Under the pieces are notes generated by a model. The model had not been told where the DNA came from. It saw nothing but the letters and a program-made list of their open reading frames with translations, and made no database searches. The position numbers and the translations under genes were made by a program. Below are positions 34,581-55,575 of a stretch of 64,000 nucleotides of DNA, one piece after another. Each line of letters begins with the position of its first letter. Position 1 is the first letter of the stretch. Source of the stretch: Terriglobia bacterium (lineage in GTDB: Bacteria > Acidobacteriota > Terriglobia > Terriglobales > Acidobacteriaceae); the NCBI GenBank assembly GCA_020072815.1, contig JAIQGE010000004.1:62001-126000 (forward strand), in the 5' to 3' direction.

Positions 34581-36176
34581 TTAACGAAGCGACTGCAACC
34601 TGAGGATCACCCCCAGAATGTTGGCCTGTATGCTATACGAGCCGTTCGAATATCGACCATACCGGTAGCGGCTGGTGAAGCCGTCTTCGTAGCCGCGCCG
34701 AAAACCCTCGCGAAAATAGTAGTTGTACTCGGCCTGGTCAACGTAATAACCCGTGTAGCCATAGTTGGCATCCTGGTAGGCGTAGGAAAGGCGGTAATTG
34801 GAGCGCCAGTGATCCAGCCGGTCCGCCCGTCCTGCCTGGTAGCCTTCCGCATAGCCATAGTTCACGGCCTGGCGCAGCAGGTCCGCGCCGTACTGGTTCG
34901 TCTGGTAATAGCGGGTCCCGCGCTTGTAACGATAGCTCGGTGCCGTGTAGAAGTACGGGTCACTATTGTAATCGTGGTCACGGTCCCGTTCGATGCGTGC
35001 TCGCTGCTCGCGCATGCGCTCCAGGTACCCTGACTGGAAACGGTACTGCTCCGCGCGTTTTTGTTGCTGCAGCGCCTCCGTGCGCTGTTGTATGACCTGC
35101 TGCTGCGCCTGCTGCTGGCTCTGGTGTTCACGGTACTGGTTCATGCGCTGCTGCTGCTGCGCAATGAGCTGCTGCTGACGCTCTTGCGGGAGCCGCTGTT
35201 GCTGCTGCGCTTTCTGTTGTTGTTGCTGCTGCGCTCTCTGCTGTTGTTGCTGCTGGCCTTTCTGCTGCTGGGCCTGCTGCTGCTGTTTCTGCTGCTCCGC
35301 GCGCTGTTTTTGCTGTTGGCCTTTTTGCTGCTCTGCTCGCTGTTGTTGTTGTTGCTGGCCCTTTTGCTGTTGGATCTGCTGTTGCTGTTTCTGCTCTGCG
35401 CGCTGCTGCTGTTGTTGCTGCTGGCCCCTCTGCTGCTGGATCTGCTCTTGCTGCTTCTGCTGCTCGGCGCGCTGTTGTTGCTGCTGTTGGCCTTTCTGCT
35501 GCTCTGCTCGCTGTTGTTGCTGTTGCTGCTGCGCTTTCTGTTGTTGCTGCTGTTGGCCTTTCTGCTGCTGAACCTGCTGTTGCTGCTTCTGCTGCTCCGC
35601 GCGCTGTTGCTGCTGGCCCTTTTGCTGTTGGATCTGCTCTTGCTGCTTCTGCTGCTCCGCGCGCTGCTGTTGTTGTTGGCCTTTTTGTTGCTGGAGCTGC
35701 TGTTGCTGTTTCTGCTGCTCCGCACGCTGCTGTTGTTGCTGTTGGCCCTTTTGCTGCTCGACGCGCTGTTGTTGTTGTTGCTGCTGGCCCTTTTGCTGCT
35801 CGGCGCGCTGCTGCTGTTGTTGCTGCTGGCCTTTCTGCTGCTCGGCGCGCTGTTGCTGTTGTTGCTGCTGGCCTTTTTGCTGCTGGATCTGCTCTTGCTG
35901 CTTCTGCTGCTCCGCGCGCCGTTGTTGTTGTTGTTGTTGCTGTTGGCCCCTCGGCGGTTGTTCGGGTTTAGCCTGCGGTTGTTCGGGCTTGGCTTGCGGT
36001 TGTTCGGGCGTGGCCTGCTTTTTGCCCCTTTGCTTTTCGGCCTGTTTTTCTTGCTGGGCTTGCTCGTCCTGTTTTTTCTGCTTTTCGTCCTGCTGGCTCT
36101 GTAGAGCATAGCCCGGAATGTTGGCGCCGATAAGACAGAAGAGAACTGCCGTGCTGATGATTCCGAATCGTTTCAT
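34581..36176 (-). CDS. Secreted polyglutamine-repeat protein with Tyr-rich C-terminal domain
   Basis: A 531-residue protein. Signal peptide (KRFGIISTAVLFCLIGANIPG), then a Lys/Glu/Gln charged stretch with three QPQAKPE repeats. From about residue 75 to 345 follows an array of Q-runs separated by RAEQQKGQ or RAEQQKQQEQIQQQ units (DNA 35150-35950). The final about 150 residues are globular-looking and rich in Tyr and Arg (YGYAEGYQAGRADRLDHW, then FREGFRRGYEDGFTSRYRYG). The domain is probably structural. The array is open in all minus frames, giving shadow ORFs on the opposite strand. Confidence 0.75.
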   Translation of the reverse strand: MKRFGIISTAVLFCLIGANIPGYALQSQQDEKQKKQDEQAQQEKQAEKQRGKKQATPEQPQAKPEQPQAKPEQPPRGQQQQQQQQRRAEQQKQQEQIQQQKGQQQQQQQRAEQQKGQQQQQQQRAEQQKGQQQQQQQRVEQQKGQQQQQQRAEQQKQQQQLQQQKGQQQQQRAEQQKQQEQIQQQKGQQQQRAEQQKQQQQVQQQKGQQQQQQKAQQQQQQQRAEQQKGQQQQQQRAEQQKQQEQIQQQRGQQQQQQQRAEQKQQQQIQQQKGQQQQQQRAEQQKGQQQKQRAEQQKQQQQAQQQKGQQQQQQRAQQQQQQKAQQQQRLPQERQQQLIAQQQQRMNQYREHQSQQQAQQQVIQQRTEALQQQKRAEQYRFQSGYLERMREQRARIERDRDHDYNSDPYFYTAPSYRYKRGTRYYQTNQYGADLLRQAVNYGYAEGYQAGRADRLDHWRSNYRLSYAYQDANYGYTGYYVDQAEYNYYFREGFRRGYEDGFTSRYRYGRYSNGSYSIQANILGVILRLQSLR

Positions 36177-47409: not shown

Positions 47410-48432
47410 CTATGGATTCAAGATGATTTTCCCGAACTGCTCGCTCTTCTCCAATCGCGCATGCGCAGCGGCGGCTTCGCGCAAGGGGAAGCTTTTGTCC
47501 ACTACCGGTTTGATCTTGCCGGAAAAGATGTGCTTCATCACTTCATGAAAGTCGCCCTGCGTCCCCATGAAGGACCCGAGGAATGAAAGCTGGCGGGCAA
47601 AGAGGAAGCGGATGTCGAACGCGGCCTCCGGGCCGGTGGTGGCGCCGCAGGTGACCAGCTTGCCGCCGGGGCGCAGCGACTTCATGCTCTCCTTCCACGT
47701 GGCCTGGCCGACGTGTTCAAAAACAATGTCACACATGGCCTTGTTGGTGAAGGCCTTCACCTCATCCGCGATTTTCTCGCGATAGTGGTTGATGACGTGG
47801 TCGGCGCCCAGGTCGCGGCACTGGTCGGATTTGCTTTCGTCGCCGGCGGTGGCGATGCAGATGGCGCCGAACATCTTGCAAATCTGAATCGCGATTGTGC
47901 CCACGCCCGAGCCTCCGCCCAGGACCAGCACGACGTCGCCGGGCTTGATCCCGCAGCGGCCCACCAGCATGTGCCACGCGGTCAGCGCGACCAGCGGCAC
48001 AGAGGCGGCTTCGTCGTAGGTCAGCTCGTCCGGAATGGGCAGGACGTTCACGCGCGGCACGGCGATGTAGTCAGCATTGCCGCCGTCATTGAGGTATCCC
48101 AGCACGCTGTACTGCAGGCAAAAATTCTGCTCGCCGCGGGTGCAGGCCGGGCACACGCCGCAGAACGTGTGCGGCGCCAGCAGCACGCGCTGGCCAGGAC
48201 GCAGGTCGGTGATGTATTCCCCGACTTCTGTGATGTCGCCGGAAACGTCACTGCCGTTGATGTGCGGCAGCTTGATGCCCGGCAGTCCCTTGCGGATAAA
48301 CAGGTCAAGATGGTTCAGCGCGCAGGCCTTCACTCGCACCAGCACCTGGTCCTTGCGCGGCTTGGGATCAGGCACATCTTCAAACTTGAGAACTTCAGGA
48401 CCACCGAATTCGTGGAAGCGGATGGCTTTCAT
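47410..48432 (-). CDS. Zinc-type alcohol dehydrogenase / quinone oxidoreductase family protein
   Basis: A 340-residue MDR-superfamily enzyme. The GroES-like N-terminal domain has NGSDVSGDITEVG and a structural-zinc loop CGVCPACTRGEQNFC. The Rossmann domain has VLVLGGGSGVGTIAIQICK. The catalytic Cys of classic zinc ADHs is replaced near NHLDLFIRKG, as in many members that reduce C=C or C=O bonds. NAD(P)H-dependent. It stands alone with repeats on both sides. Confidence 0.85.
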   Translation of the reverse strand: MKAIRFHEFGGPEVLKFEDVPDPKPRKDQVLVRVKACALNHLDLFIRKGLPGIKLPHINGSDVSGDITEVGEYITDLRPGQRVLLAPHTFCGVCPACTRGEQNFCLQYSVLGYLNDGGNADYIAVPRVNVLPIPDELTYDEAASVPLVALTAWHMLVGRCGIKPGDVVLVLGGGSGVGTIAIQICKMFGAICIATAGDESKSDQCRDLGADHVINHYREKIADEVKAFTNKAMCDIVFEHVGQATWKESMKSLRPGGKLVTCGATTGPEAAFDIRFLFARQLSFLGSFMGTQGDFHEVMKHIFSGKIKPVVDKSFPLREAAAAHARLEKSEQFGKIILNP

Positions 48433-48470: not shown

Positions 48471-48600
48471 CCCACCACGGAGGCACGGAGGCACGGAGAA
48501 AAAAAATTGGTAATCGGGTAAGTTGGCAACTTGTCAATTGAAGATCGTATTCCCGTGATGATTTTCATTTACCCGCTTACCAAATTACCCAACTGCCAAT
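48471..48600. repeat. Two repeat families upstream of the VOC gene
   Basis: Positions 48471-48500 hold one CCACGGAGGCACGGAG copy. Positions 48506-48600 hold facing arms of a GGTAATCGGGTAAGTTGG family (right arm CTTACCAAATTACCCAACTG). Confidence 0.65.
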
Positions 48601-48675: not shown

Positions 48676-49029
48676 ATGATCTCCGGTCTCCACGCCATCC
48701 TCTACTCTCCGGACGCCGACAAAGTCCGGGCTTTCTTGCGCGACGTTCTTGGCTTCAAATCGGTGGACGCCGGCCATGGCTGGATGATTTTTGCCGTGCC
48801 GCCGGCGGAGCTGGCTGCCCATCCGGTGGACGAAGGGCAAAAGCCTTATCACGAACTCTATCTGATGTGTGACGACCTAAAAGCAACCATGAACGACCTG
48901 GCGAGCAAAGGCGTAAAGTGCAGCGCGGTCACGGAAGCCCGCTGGGGATCGGTAACCAAGATTCAGTTGCCCGGCGGCGGCGAACTGGGACTGTACCAGC
49001 CGAGGCATCTGACGGCGCTCAATCTCTAA
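48676..49029 (+). CDS. VOC-superfamily (glyoxalase-like) protein
   Basis: A 117-residue single-domain VOC protein: ISGLHAILYSPDADKVRAFL, DVLGFKSVDAGHGWMIFAVP, then HELYLMCDDLKATMNDLASK and IQLPGGGELGLYQPRH. One canonical metal position (Glu in GELGLYQ) is present. Substrate unknown. Proteins like this act as dioxygenases, isomerases or thiol transferases. Confidence 0.8.
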   Translation: MISGLHAILYSPDADKVRAFLRDVLGFKSVDAGHGWMIFAVPPAELAAHPVDEGQKPYHELYLMCDDLKATMNDLASKGVKCSAVTEARWGSVTKIQLPGGGELGLYQPRHLTALNL

Positions 49030-49556
49030 TCGGCACCGGGCAACTACCCAGCCGAAAGAACGCCATACCGCCGCATTTCGGCTGAGAATCACCTCCGTTT
49101 TGTTTACCATTTCATAAATATTTCGCCCACCCCACCCCCTTATGGACGCTTTTGTTGAAAACAAAAGGCCAAACCCAATTCGACCGGTCGGTCACCGGAC
49201 GGTCGAAGCTCCTTTTTGGCCTCGTTTCGAGGGCCAATCGGCAATCATTTTTTCAGCAGGTTCGCTTCAGCTTTGTTATCAACTAATAAACAGCGGTGAA
49301 CGACTCACCCGATGCTGAGTGCTCAGTGTTATTTGTCAAAGATCGGCCCTTCCCGGCCTGAGCCGTGCAGAACTTCAGATCATTCGCTAACAGTATATCG
49401 TATTTTGTTCGCTAATGCAATTCGCTAACGCATTATGGACCACAGTTGCCTTGCGTGAGCATCGTGAAAGTTCTTGCCTGAATAAGGCTTGCGTGTCAGA
49501 TCTCAAGTAGTTCCGCGTTTGAGGCTTACTCCGAATGTGCCATAATCGTGCTCACA
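49030..49556. promoter_or_regulatory. Repeat-rich control region upstream of the TIR-Fis gene
   Basis: 527 bp with lower GC than the surroundings and no convincing gene. It holds a perfect 8-bp hairpin, CTTTTGTT-GAA-AACAAAAG, at 49149-49167. A GACCGGTCGGTC palindrome lies within a larger inverted repeat (CGACCG...CGGTCG, 49181-49205). TTCGCTAA occurs three times (49383, 49408, 49421), the last two as TTCGCTAATGCA and TTCGCTAACGCA 13 bp apart. These look like operators; the binding protein is not known. Confidence 0.5.
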
Positions 49557-50342
49557 ATGGACGTGTTCATAAGCTGGTCTGGCGAACGTAGCCGGGCAGC
49601 CGCAGAAGCCCTTCGCGGATGGCCGCCCAAGATCATCAATGCAATCAAGCCTTGGCTTTCATCTGAGGATATTGACAAAGGTGCTCGATGGGGCACCGAT
49701 GTCGCGTCTCGATTGGAGGCAGCAAAAGCTGGGATCATATGCCTGACTCCGGGTAATTTGCATTCAGACTGGATACTTTTCGAAGCTGGGGCGCTTTCCA
49801 AGACTCTTCAGAATACCTACGTGTGCCCGTTTCTGATCGGGCTGGAACCTTCCGACATCAAACCTCCTTTGGCACAGTTTCAAGCCACAAGAGCCCAGAA
49901 GAACGACGTCTTGAAGCTACTAAAAAACTTAAACAGTGCGTTAGCTGAGAGTGCTTTGCCTGAAGCGCACATCGAGGAAGCATTCGAGGTTTGGTGGCCA
50001 AAATTGGAATCTCAATTGAAAGCATTGCCCGTCGAAGGTTCAACAACCAAAACGCACCGACAAGATCGTGAATTGCTAGAGGAGATTCTTTCACTCGTTA
50101 GGAATCAGAACAGATCTTCAATGGAGGCCCTGTTTCCTAAGACTTTTGATCTCAATGACATAAAGACTGAAATCGACAAACAAGCCATCGTGCGAGCGCT
50201 TGATGCATCAGAAGGAAGTTTTGCTCACGCGGCGCGCCTGCTTGGCATTAGTCGGGAAGCTCTTCAGGTAAAAGCTAAGGACTATGGAATTGTGCCAAAA
50301 CGAACAGATACAAAAGATCCCAACGGTGCCAAAGATACTTAG
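49557..50342 (+). CDS. TIR-domain protein fused to a Fis-type helix-turn-helix
   Basis: A 261-residue protein. Residues 1-115 form a TIR-like domain: MDVFISWSGERSR (first strand and loop), WLSSEDIDKGARWG (BB-loop region), AGIICLTPGNLHSDW, then FEAGALSK. Glu76 there corresponds to the catalytic Glu of TIR NAD-cleaving enzymes. A helical linker follows (about 120-195). Residues about 206-245 (IDKQAIVRALDASEGSFAHA, then ARLLGISREALQVKAKDYGI) match the Fis/HTH_8 DNA-binding fold. The start at 49557 fits the TIR fold; a GTG at 49548 adds three residues. Base composition is lower in GC than the neighbours, suggesting transfer. A role in NAD-dependent defence or in regulation is inference. Confidence 0.8.
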   Translation: MDVFISWSGERSRAAAEALRGWPPKIINAIKPWLSSEDIDKGARWGTDVASRLEAAKAGIICLTPGNLHSDWILFEAGALSKTLQNTYVCPFLIGLEPSDIKPPLAQFQATRAQKNDVLKLLKNLNSALAESALPEAHIEEAFEVWWPKLESQLKALPVEGSTTKTHRQDRELLEEILSLVRNQNRSSMEALFPKTFDLNDIKTEIDKQAIVRALDASEGSFAHAARLLGISREALQVKAKDYGIVPKRTDTKDPNGAKDT

Positions 50343-50418: not shown

Positions 50419-50451
50419 GCTCTTCTCCGTGCCTCCGTGTCTCCGTGGTGA
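50419..50451. repeat. Single CTCCGTGCCTCCGTGTCTCC repeat arm
   Basis: One minus-oriented copy of the CCACGGAGGCACGGAG family between the TIR-Fis gene and xdhC. It overlaps the longest possible frame of xdhC, which argues for the shorter start. Confidence 0.65.
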
Positions 50452-50480
50452 GCTCTTGCGTGGTCGGCTACAATATCCCC

Positions 50481-51320
50481 GTGGACATCTACGAAGAAAT
50501 AACCCGGCTTCGCAAAGAAGGACGGCGCGGCGCGCTGGCCACCATCATCAACGTGCGCGGCTCCATCCCGTCGTTTGAGACGGCCAAAATGCTGGTGCGC
50601 GAGGACGGCAGCATCGTCGGCACCATCGGCGGGGGCTGCGTGGAGGCCGAAGTCTGGGAAGCGGCAAAGGAAGTCATGAAGTGCGAGAAGCCGCAGAGCT
50701 TGAACTTCAACCTGAACAACGATCCCAAATACGATACCGGCCTGGTCTGCGGCGGCACGCTGGAGATTTACGTGGAGCCGGTGCTGCCGGTTTCCACGCT
50801 TTACATTTTTGGCGCGGGGCACGTGGCCTGGAGCCTGTACAAGACGGCGCGCATGGCCGGCTTTGACGTGGTGGTCACCGACGATCGCGAGACTTATGCC
50901 AACCGCGAGCGCTTCCCTGACGCGCGCGACGTTTACGCCGACGAGTATGAGCGCGTGATGCCGCAACTGGCGCCCAATGATTCTTCCTACATTGTGATTG
51001 TCACGCGCGGTCATCGCGACGATATGCGCGTGCTGCGCTGGGCGGCGGAGACACCGGCAAAATATGTCGGCATGATCGGTTCGCAGCGCAAGACCATCGC
51101 CATCTACAAAGAGCTGGAAAAAGAAGGCATCGCCGCGGACAAGCTGGCGCGGGTGTTTGCCCCGGTGGGCATTGATATCGGCGCGATCACGCCGGAGGAG
51201 ATCGCCGTTGCGATTACCGCGGAGCTGATTGCGATTCGCCGCGGTTCGAAGACGGCCTTGCCTCATATGAAGAGCGCCAAGGCGGCGGAGATCCTCAAGC
51301 AAAATCTTACCGCTGATTAA
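50481..51320 (+). CDS. XdhC/CoxI-family molybdenum cofactor insertion factor
   Basis: A protein of about 280 residues. XdhC proteins bind Mo cofactor, promote its sulphuration and deliver it to xanthine dehydrogenase-type hydroxylases. The N-terminal domain has TIINVRGSIPSFETAKMLV and VGTIGGGCVEAEVW, with a conserved Cys, and LVCGGTLEIYVEP. The C-terminal Rossmann domain has LYIFGAGHVAWSLYKTARMA and YVGMIGSQRKTIAIY. GTG at 50481 (GTG GAC ATC) is preferred over 50445, which lies in a repeat. No hydroxylase gene is adjacent, but a mocA-like gene follows. Confidence 0.88.
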   Translation: MDIYEEITRLRKEGRRGALATIINVRGSIPSFETAKMLVREDGSIVGTIGGGCVEAEVWEAAKEVMKCEKPQSLNFNLNNDPKYDTGLVCGGTLEIYVEPVLPVSTLYIFGAGHVAWSLYKTARMAGFDVVVTDDRETYANRERFPDARDVYADEYERVMPQLAPNDSSYIVIVTRGHRDDMRVLRWAAETPAKYVGMIGSQRKTIAIYKELEKEGIAADKLARVFAPVGIDIGAITPEEIAVAITAELIAIRRGSKTALPHMKSAKAAEILKQNLTAD

Positions 51321-51362: not shown

Positions 51363-51468
51363 GATTGGGTAAATGGGTAATTTGGTAAATGGGTAATTGA
51401 AAACCGGCGTAAACCAAACGCAGTTTCTAAATTACCCATTTACCAATTTACGCAATTACCAATTTTCT
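51363..51468. repeat. Facing arms of the GGGTAATTTGGTAAATGGG family
   Basis: The left arm (51365-51400) has GGTAAATGGGTAATTTGG words; the right arm (51428-51465) is AATTACCCATTTACCAATTT. The centre is 27 nt. It lies between xdhC and the mocA-like gene and would form a very stable RNA hairpin. A CGCTGATNAACGCTGATNAC run precedes it (51311-51340). Confidence 0.75.
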
Positions 51469-54684: not shown

Positions 54685-55536
54685 TCAGGCCGCTATTTGT
54701 TCTTTTTTCTCTAACAGCGAGATCAATTCAGCGATATTCCAGGCATGAGAAGCAATCCCGGCTTCCATTGCAGGCGTCACCCTGAGACTGCTGTGAATGC
54801 GGCAAAAATTGTAGTACATGAAATAGATCGCCAAATTATGGCAATGGTTTTCGTATTTCTTGGAAAACCCATTGGTTAGCCGAGTGAATCTCCGCATACT
54901 CATCCGCATGGTGAGGTTCTGTCTTTCAACATAACTCGTACAAATGTGATTCGGGTCAGGGTTGCCGCTCTTGATTCCAACAGTTGTGCCGATACACTGA
55001 GCAGGGCTGTAACGTGCACTTGAATCCTCTTGCATTGGTGCACCGTACTGTTTTATCAGCATCGCGTAATCCACTTCAGCACCAAACGCACCTTCGATAG
55101 CTTCAGCATAGAATCTCAGACCATCGCTGGTGATTTGTAGGCGAGTGGAAACACGCGATGCTAGATCATCAATGAATGCCTTTGCCCAATTCAAATCACG
55201 CTTCCCGCAAGCGTAAGAAATAATCAACTTCGACTGCGCTTCAATCGCAGTCCATGTCCAGAGATCGCCAATGCCTGTGATGTTTTCTTTGTCCTTCGGA
55301 ACGTTCTTTTTCTTGGCATAGCAGAAGCTCCAAATCTCATCACATTCGACATGCTTCGCCGGGACGTTCCGCACAGCCATGTCATGATAGTCAGCGCAAA
55401 CAGTGCCTAATTCTGCCAGCAGTTTAAGAACTGTGTCCTTGCCGACAGAGAACATCCTGACAATACTCCTAATGCTGTTTCCCTCTATCAGAGCAGAAAC
55501 AATCTGCGCTCGCTTGGATGTAGTTAATCTATTCAT
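54685..55536 (-). CDS. IS1-family transposase, single open frame
   Basis: A 283-residue DDE transposase. The N-terminal helix-turn-helix (LIEGNSIRSIVRMFSVGKDT) is followed by the catalytic core: first Asp in HVECDEIWSFCYAKKKNV, second Asp in LQITSDGLRFYAEA, and the Glu-containing segment CTSYVERQNLTMRMSMRRFT. No frameshift is needed, unlike insAB of classical IS1. Its stop lies 3 bp inside the left inverted repeat. The ATG at 55536 is placed only about 10 nt after a strong promoter -10 box. The in-frame start at 55575 would overlap the promoter. Confidence 0.93.
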   Translation of the reverse strand: MNRLTTSKRAQIVSALIEGNSIRSIVRMFSVGKDTVLKLLAELGTVCADYHDMAVRNVPAKHVECDEIWSFCYAKKKNVPKDKENITGIGDLWTWTAIEAQSKLIISYACGKRDLNWAKAFIDDLASRVSTRLQITSDGLRFYAEAIEGAFGAEVDYAMLIKQYGAPMQEDSSARYSPAQCIGTTVGIKSGNPDPNHICTSYVERQNLTMRMSMRRFTRLTNGFSKKYENHCHNLAIYFMYYNFCRIHSSLRVTPAMEAGIASHAWNIAELISLLEKKEQIAA

Positions 55537-55546
55537 AACAATACAG

Positions 55547-55575
55547 ATTATGCTTGAGCGTACAGGAGTTGTCAA
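55547..55575 (-). promoter_or_regulatory. Transposase promoter
   Basis: On the minus strand TTGACA (55575-55570), 17 bp, then CATAAT (55552-55547): a near-consensus sigma-70 promoter. Transcription should start about 4 nt before the transposase ATG (55536), giving an almost leaderless message. Confidence 0.7.

Follow-up and report, generated by a model that had tools for sequence, protein, structure and literature searches.

The window, a stretch of 64,000 nucleotides from a Terriglobia bacterium (contig JAIQGE010000004.1), carries on its plus strand an open reading frame (49557-50342) for a protein of 261 aa plus stop, in which an N-terminal TIR domain is followed by a C-terminal Fis-type helix-turn-helix (HTH). 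Orthologues lie at the same spot in two congeneric genomes (loci L059 and L060), where the TIR gene is likewise found 3' of the dehydrogenase and glyoxalase genes and 5' of xdhC. The features of the locus are as follows.

47410..48432, minus strand: zinc-type alcohol dehydrogenase gene, synteny marker (Pfam; locus comparison)
48473-48500 and 50423-50450: CACCACGGAGG-type repeats, inverted around the locus, of an element with 69 genome copies
48676..49029, plus strand: glyoxalase/bleomycin-resistance-type gene, upstream neighbour and synteny marker (Pfam Glyoxalase, 1e-5)
49541..49546, plus strand: CATAAT, a -10-like hexamer (extended -10) 10 nt before the ATG (consensus match; conserved in L059 and L060)
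49557..50342, plus strand: TIR-HTH_8 protein (open reading frame, Pfam, AlphaFold2 model, start shared with the orthologues)
49557..49898, plus strand: TIR domain, residues 1-114 (Pfam TIR_2 from residue 3; modelled TIR fold)
49557..50117, plus strand: conserved family core, residues 1-187 (PADLOC TIR-TM; homology to L059; orthologue identity)
49782..49784, plus strand: codon of the putative catalytic E76 (WxxxE), invariant in 19/19 family rows
50064..50132, plus strand: helix 170-192, which holds DRELLEEILSLVR; junction of the core and the exchangeable tail (model; homology ends at 184-191)
50169..50285, plus strand: HTH_8 Fis-type helix-turn-helix, residues 205-243, the C-terminal module (Pfam, PADLOC, model)
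50445..51320, plus strand: XdhC/CoxI family gene, downstream neighbour and synteny marker (Pfam XdhC_C, 9e-43)

Both Pfam domain calls in the window protein are above the curated gathering cut-offs: TIR_2 scores 34.2 bits against a cut-off of 28 (4.1e-8, residues 3-114), and HTH_8 scores 32.6 bits against a cut-off of 22 (6.8e-8, residues 205-243). Residues 170-245 are also matched by the PADLOC RtcR_PspF2 HTH (3e-8), while no AAA+ domain before the HTH was found with Pfam. An AlphaFold2 model built with 43 family cores (mean pLDDT of 87.8, with the blocks of residues 201-250 averaging 83-93) has a TIR fold, the helix 170-192, and HTH helices at 199-217, 222-229 and 233-242. When aligned by VIA-align in a fold search that is mostly a test of the TIR part, this model matches SPARTA TIR-APAZ over residues 1-149 (Z 13.8, rmsd 4.1, 141 residues), SARM1 (Z 12.7, rmsd 2.6-3.1, 120-121 residues) and SpbK (Z 12.6, rmsd 3.7, 147 residues). 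The first-pass annotation had placed a TIR domain and a Fis HTH in one protein and had proposed structure prediction of both; the Pfam scores and the modelled TIR fold and three-helix HTH agree with it. The segment FEAGALSK, which was said to hold the likely catalytic Glu, is also present, and E76 in WILFE (a WxxxE motif) is the putative catalytic residue by a role that we take to carry over from SARM1. W72 and E76 are invariant in 19/19 family rows that were gathered without using that motif; their conservation is taken from this set only, because the relatives in genome contigs were selected by W..[FY]E[AV]GA.

An alternative start codon, GTG at 49548, would give a protein of 264 aa. The ATG at 49557 is preferred because both this codon and the extended -10 TGCCATAAT are conserved in L059 and L060; sequence further upstream of the TGCCATAAT block is not common to the three loci. 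Given a dyad-like GTGnnCACA and a -10 directly 5' of the ATG, one could propose that the HTH binds its own promoter and holds a toxic TIR off until infection. We judge this very unlikely, as L059 and L060, which have no HTH_8 tail, conserve the same block, and as the promoter match is at chance level (1 found in the -10 scan versus a mean of 1.0 in shuffles). Since the block is kept in orthologues without HTH_8, it is better read as a promoter and is no evidence for autoregulation by the HTH; control of its own promoter, as suggested at first pass, thus has nothing in its favour except that an HTH is there.

The glyoxalase-type gene is present at the locus in L059, L060 and L253, and the TIR gene is missing from the locus in 4 of the 7 congeneric genomes with an XdhC orthologue. 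With a GC content of 49.8% in the core and 46.4% in the tail, against 59.1% for the window, the lower GC reported by the first-pass annotation is real. Its suggestion of transfer, from low GC and flanking repeats, is rejected as far as a recent event is concerned: the gene sits at the same junction in three congeneric genomes, the cores of both syntenic orthologues also have a GC content of about 50%, and one flanking repeat, CACCACGGAGGCACGGAGGCACGGAG, is interspersed throughout the genome (69 copies at no more than 3 mismatches, versus 1 for a control). Because the value is close to 50% in all three orthologue cores, the low GC either predates the species split or is a lasting property. Third-position GC is 38.7% in the tail, which has only about 75 codons, versus 50.8% in the core, and this difference would fit a tail that arose separately.

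The PADLOC TIR-TM profile matches residues 1-197 of the window protein (8.2e-76) over profile positions 1-206 of 293, and with the match ending there, the AC1-type C-terminus (profile 207-293) is absent. For the TIR protein of phage AC1 (L057), which is 36% identical to the window protein over 1-225, the match covers profile positions 1-286 (2.7e-118), and the two genes upstream of it match PADLOC 2TM-TIR and 1TM-TIR. The cloned three-gene AC1 locus is reported to protect E. coli C against lambda, LF82_P8 and P2 (Rousset 2022, PMC9122126). With TIR-TM matched by 91/91 genome-derived family rows, the phage-defence setting proposed at first pass is supported by family membership.

Searches of genome and viral contigs found 443 and 88 family relatives, respectively, the former in genomes of many phyla; a search of viral contigs with the window protein as the single query gave no match. 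Two family members occur in E. coli prophages, in 13 and 25 of 5426 genomes. Among the sampled genomes, carriers amount to 15/396 in the window's own phylum and to 5/398, 6/287 and 7/287 in three further samples; all four counts comprise the genome on which the sample was centred, itself a known carrier, and the 7/287 a second known carrier as well; a profile rerun of the own-phylum search concerns the same genomes as the earlier sample. The family is uncommon in the sampled genomes. In one genome of the window's phylum, two family genes are arranged in tandem (L042, 1501-2391 and 2476-3315).

The partners of the AC1 TIR are missing here: tblastn of the AC1 partners found neither the 2TM nor the 1TM gene in the window, and the PADLOC scan of 10 neighbouring genes gave no 2TM/1TM partner and no credible defence match, the sole match being a weak one for mad2 (8e-4) on the alcohol dehydrogenase. 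Across the family, the most common neighbour gene family occurs at 5 of the 77 genome loci at most, and at none of them does it directly adjoin the TIR gene on its strand. A universal membrane partner was also considered and rejected, with TM-like adjacent ORFs upstream at 16 of 75 loci and downstream at 10 of 72, and no family in common. No TM-like segment was found after residue 120 in any of 172 family members. Since the neighbours include neither a common partner nor a credible defence match, the gene works alone or with unlinked partners. Hence, the solitary part of the one-gene system put forward at first pass stands.

The order of the domains also resembles that of one-component regulators, in which case the N-terminal TIR would sense NAD+ or a nucleotide and the C-terminal HTH would regulate other genes, with no role in defence; the origin of the HTH is of the NtrC type, its matches being mostly sigma-54 regulators. 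However, sigma-54 regulators of the NtrC type have an AAA+ domain before the HTH, whereas the window protein has a TIR domain and no AAA+ match. The sisters at the same locus are without HTH_8, and the family includes prophage genes as well as a gene from a locus whose phage resistance has been tested. We therefore consider such a regulator highly improbable.

Relatives with the same TIR-HTH_8 architecture, whose absence the first-pass annotation would have counted against its own reading, are lacking in our sample: HTH_8 is found in 0/180 other family rows (0/90 genome-derived, 0/80 viral and 0/10 further rows, some of them near-identical to each other). The relatives bear other tails, so that what needs explaining is no longer a single fusion but a whole family whose tails are exchangeable. 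The contig scans contributed the best 80 of the 443 genome relatives and 80 of the 88 viral relatives. Left out of the tail counts are L121 and L136, which have broken frames, and L007-L009, L040, L043, L222, L286 and L288 as fragments or frameshifted; L066 was used as far as readable, and L104 and L284 have the same tail.

At the window's own locus, the core protein is 81% identical to that of L059 and 79% identical to that of L060, while the tails score like shuffles (window/L059, p 0.23; window/L060, p 0.58; L059/L060, p 0.23). DNA homology between the window and L059 covers 573 nt, including 22 nt upstream, and stops 551 nt into the gene; in several family pairs, homology ends at residues 184-191. 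The modelled tail of the window protein consists of three helices, whereas the L060 model closes with a long helix and then a unit of three strands and one more helix (beta-beta-beta-alpha), and has no HTH. In a second pair, L062 and L063, the cores are 89% identical and the tails 4% (Z -1.2); the DNA flanking the tail is homologous, at 84% ahead of it and 86-93% behind it, and the replaced stretch measures about 300 versus 400 nt. A third pair, L094 and L098, are two copies in one Abditibacteriaceae genome, with cores that are 79% identical and tails that are unrelated. Divergence instead of replacement is rejected for window/L059/L060 and for L062/L063, as their tails score as shuffles. When the 172 members are clustered by BLAST, the cores fall into a single cluster and the tails into 116, including 103 singletons; the 116 are an upper bound, since short tails inflate the count of distinct modules in BLAST. 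The converse is common too, and for other pairs divergence is not rejected: one tail class has 27 members, and tails remain related in many close pairs, including many with cores above 70% (e.g. L034/L038, Z 57).

If the replacement of the tail had broken the system, the gene would now be a drifting relic, and it is true that the HTH_8 fusion occurs once and that the gene is absent in 4/7 congeners. A relic is nonetheless very unlikely: the frame is open, WxxxE is kept, and the 79-81% protein identity of the core is found at only about 74-75% nucleotide identity. Protein identity thus exceeds nucleotide identity, as in the flanking genes, and so the changes in the core are mostly silent. We conclude that the core is conserved, changing in the same manner as the housekeeping genes next to it, and that beyond residue ~185 unrelated domains have been substituted for one another at the same position. 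The tail thus looks less like a fixed feature than like a recognition part that can be exchanged. An HTH that is one of many exchangeable tails on a defence-linked TIR family is a stronger finding than a one-gene DNA sensor or self-regulator. Among titles and the starts of abstracts, with subscription journals mostly outside reach, we found neither an exchange of tails in the TIR-TM family nor a TIR-Fis fusion. With one half of the protein, the enzyme, held constant and the other half replaced at one chromosomal spot, nature has provided a series of swap experiments that points to the cutting site, the parts to swap and the phages to be compared. To our knowledge, there are very few TIR proteins lacking a signalling partner for which the mode of phage recognition is understood.

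The tails of the 91 genome-derived rows were scanned with Pfam at an E value of 0.01. Matches over cut-off, each read singly, were found in six proteins and four families: RNA_pol_A_CTD in L129 (5e-13) and L086 (8.5e-10), PcrA_UvrD_tudor in L065 (7.6e-8) and L070 (5.2e-8), Sigma70_r4 in L066 (4.7e-9), and HTH_8 in the window protein. Other Pfam names in these rows are single weaker matches (8.8e-5 or worse), and ten further rows gave no tail match over the Pfam cut-off. In the 80 viral rows, HTH_24 is over cut-off in L169, of which L170 is the same protein. About 94% of the tails are without a recognisable domain. The two alpha-CTD tails (L129 and L086) score 108-115 to both hosts' RpoA versus 55 to each other, and, being nearer to RpoA than to one another, they look like separate captures. 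In one phylum sample, the tail of one of two further members (L281, 1501-2397, and L280, 1501-2358) has no match and that of the other a weak one to an eIF2D winged helix (0.0021, below cut-off).

Plant NLRs contain integrated domains that act as decoys, and the T4 proteins Alt/ModA and AsiA attack the alpha-CTD and sigma region 4. Tails of this family may similarly be parts of the host transcription machinery that serve as bait for phage anti-transcription proteins, with NAD+ cleavage following once the bait is bound or modified. The candidate decoys are the RNAP alpha-CTD, sigma70 region 4, the PcrA/UvrD tudor domain and the Fis/NtrC HTH, and this reading, which we consider possible but less likely than not, is supported by the fact that the singly read tails over cut-off in the genome-derived set are all of the transcription-machinery kind and by the apparently separate capture of the two alpha-CTD tails. 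If the alpha-CTD, sigma region 4 and Fis tails are baits, phage proteins that attack host transcription would be the predicted triggers, and bacteria would offer a test of an integrated-decoy strategy like that of plants.

Domains of the Fis/NtrC type form dimers and bind DNA, and hence the HTH could also act as the DNA sensor that the first-pass annotation had in mind, with incoming or replicating phage DNA as the scaffold that clusters the TIRs for NAD+ cleavage. HTH_8 is over the gathering cut-off, other members have HTH-like tails (e.g. the HTH_24 of L169), and the TIRs of SPARTA, the nearest fold matches, are described as being switched on by nucleic acids. Nevertheless, host DNA would also trigger such a sensor unless something discriminates, and most family tails are not recognisable DNA-binding domains. 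In addition, although the HTH of the window protein keeps the family signature, it has the lowest net charge (+2, with the others at +3 to +7) among the own-genome HTH_8 copies that fit the motif (13/19); this is a weak hint, slightly against tight DNA binding and no proof. Overall, we regard a DNA sensor as unlikely. A degenerate HTH was set aside as proof of a decoy, a charge comparison on 13/19 copies being too weak for that purpose.

Our preferred reading, held with moderate confidence, is that the gene encodes a solitary TIR protein for phage defence, from the TIR-TM (phage AC1) family, with an exchangeable C-terminal module that recognises the trigger of infection. Given the facts on the family and on tail exchange, and the analogue SpbK, we take the tail as the sensor, the helix as the relay and the TIR as the NADase. 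The C-terminal piece would recognise the infection trigger and, on meeting its target, would bring the TIR domains together via the helix; clustering would then allow the TIR active sites to form and to cleave NAD+, and the infected cell would halt growth before phage release. Replacing the C-terminal piece would change what is recognised. In the window protein, the recognition part is the Fis-type HTH, which may be bait for a phage protein, a DNA binder, or both. The most likely target of the Fis module would lie at the host transcription machinery, namely a phage protein that binds Fis/NtrC-type domains, with DNA second. Against this reading, the AC1 TIR was tested only together with two membrane partners that are absent from the window; on its own, a TIR from the family may depend on a partner gene at another locus or lack activity. 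Moreover, no other defence gene was found in the 10 neighbouring genes scanned, and the TIR gene is absent in 4/7 congeners. With HTH_8 in none of the 180 other family rows, nothing shows selection on this module.

A conserved toxic part joined to a variable recognition part is also found in CapRel, with its tails, and in plant NLRs, with their integrated decoys. The family of the window protein is alike in having a constant toxic part and a variable part, for which recognition is putative, and differs from both in the enzyme. The AC1 TIR of a P2-like phage (PMC9122126) is like the window protein in its core family; it differs in its tail and in being preceded by two membrane-protein genes, whereas the window gene comes without these partners and its product has a Fis HTH at the C-terminus. 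For SpbK of Bacillus subtilis ICEBs1, the phage portal protein is reported to bind the non-TIR domain, upon which the TIR domains cluster and the NADase is activated (PMC12847820). SpbK resembles the system proposed here in being a single-gene TIR NADase with a matching TIR fold and a separate domain that binds a phage protein, although the order is reversed: its sensor, a four-helix bundle, comes first and its TIR last, whereas the TIR of the window protein is N-terminal. The closest TIR folds among solved structures are those of SPARTA TIR-APAZ; unlike SPARTA, the window gene comes without APAZ or a short Argonaute, neither of which was found in the window protein or in the 10 neighbouring genes scanned. 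Thoeris ThsB and the TIR effectors of CBASS are likewise TIR enzymes in phage defence, and differ in that none of ThsA, CD-NTase, SAVED and STING was found in the window protein or in the 10 neighbouring genes scanned.

Elsewhere in the window, a 43-nt inverted repeat (51368-51460, 84% complementary) is made of TTACC/GGTAA units and has related copies at 48500-48600. An IS1-type transposase gene (54685-55575, minus strand; DDE_Tnp_IS1, 24.4 bits against a cut-off of 24.1) adjoins a low-GC patch at 55-56 kb. At 35020-36100, there is almost no A on the plus strand (AT skew of -0.86); this region is a degenerate array of CTG/TTG-rich units, whose minus strand would translate into a stretch of protein very rich in glutamine.
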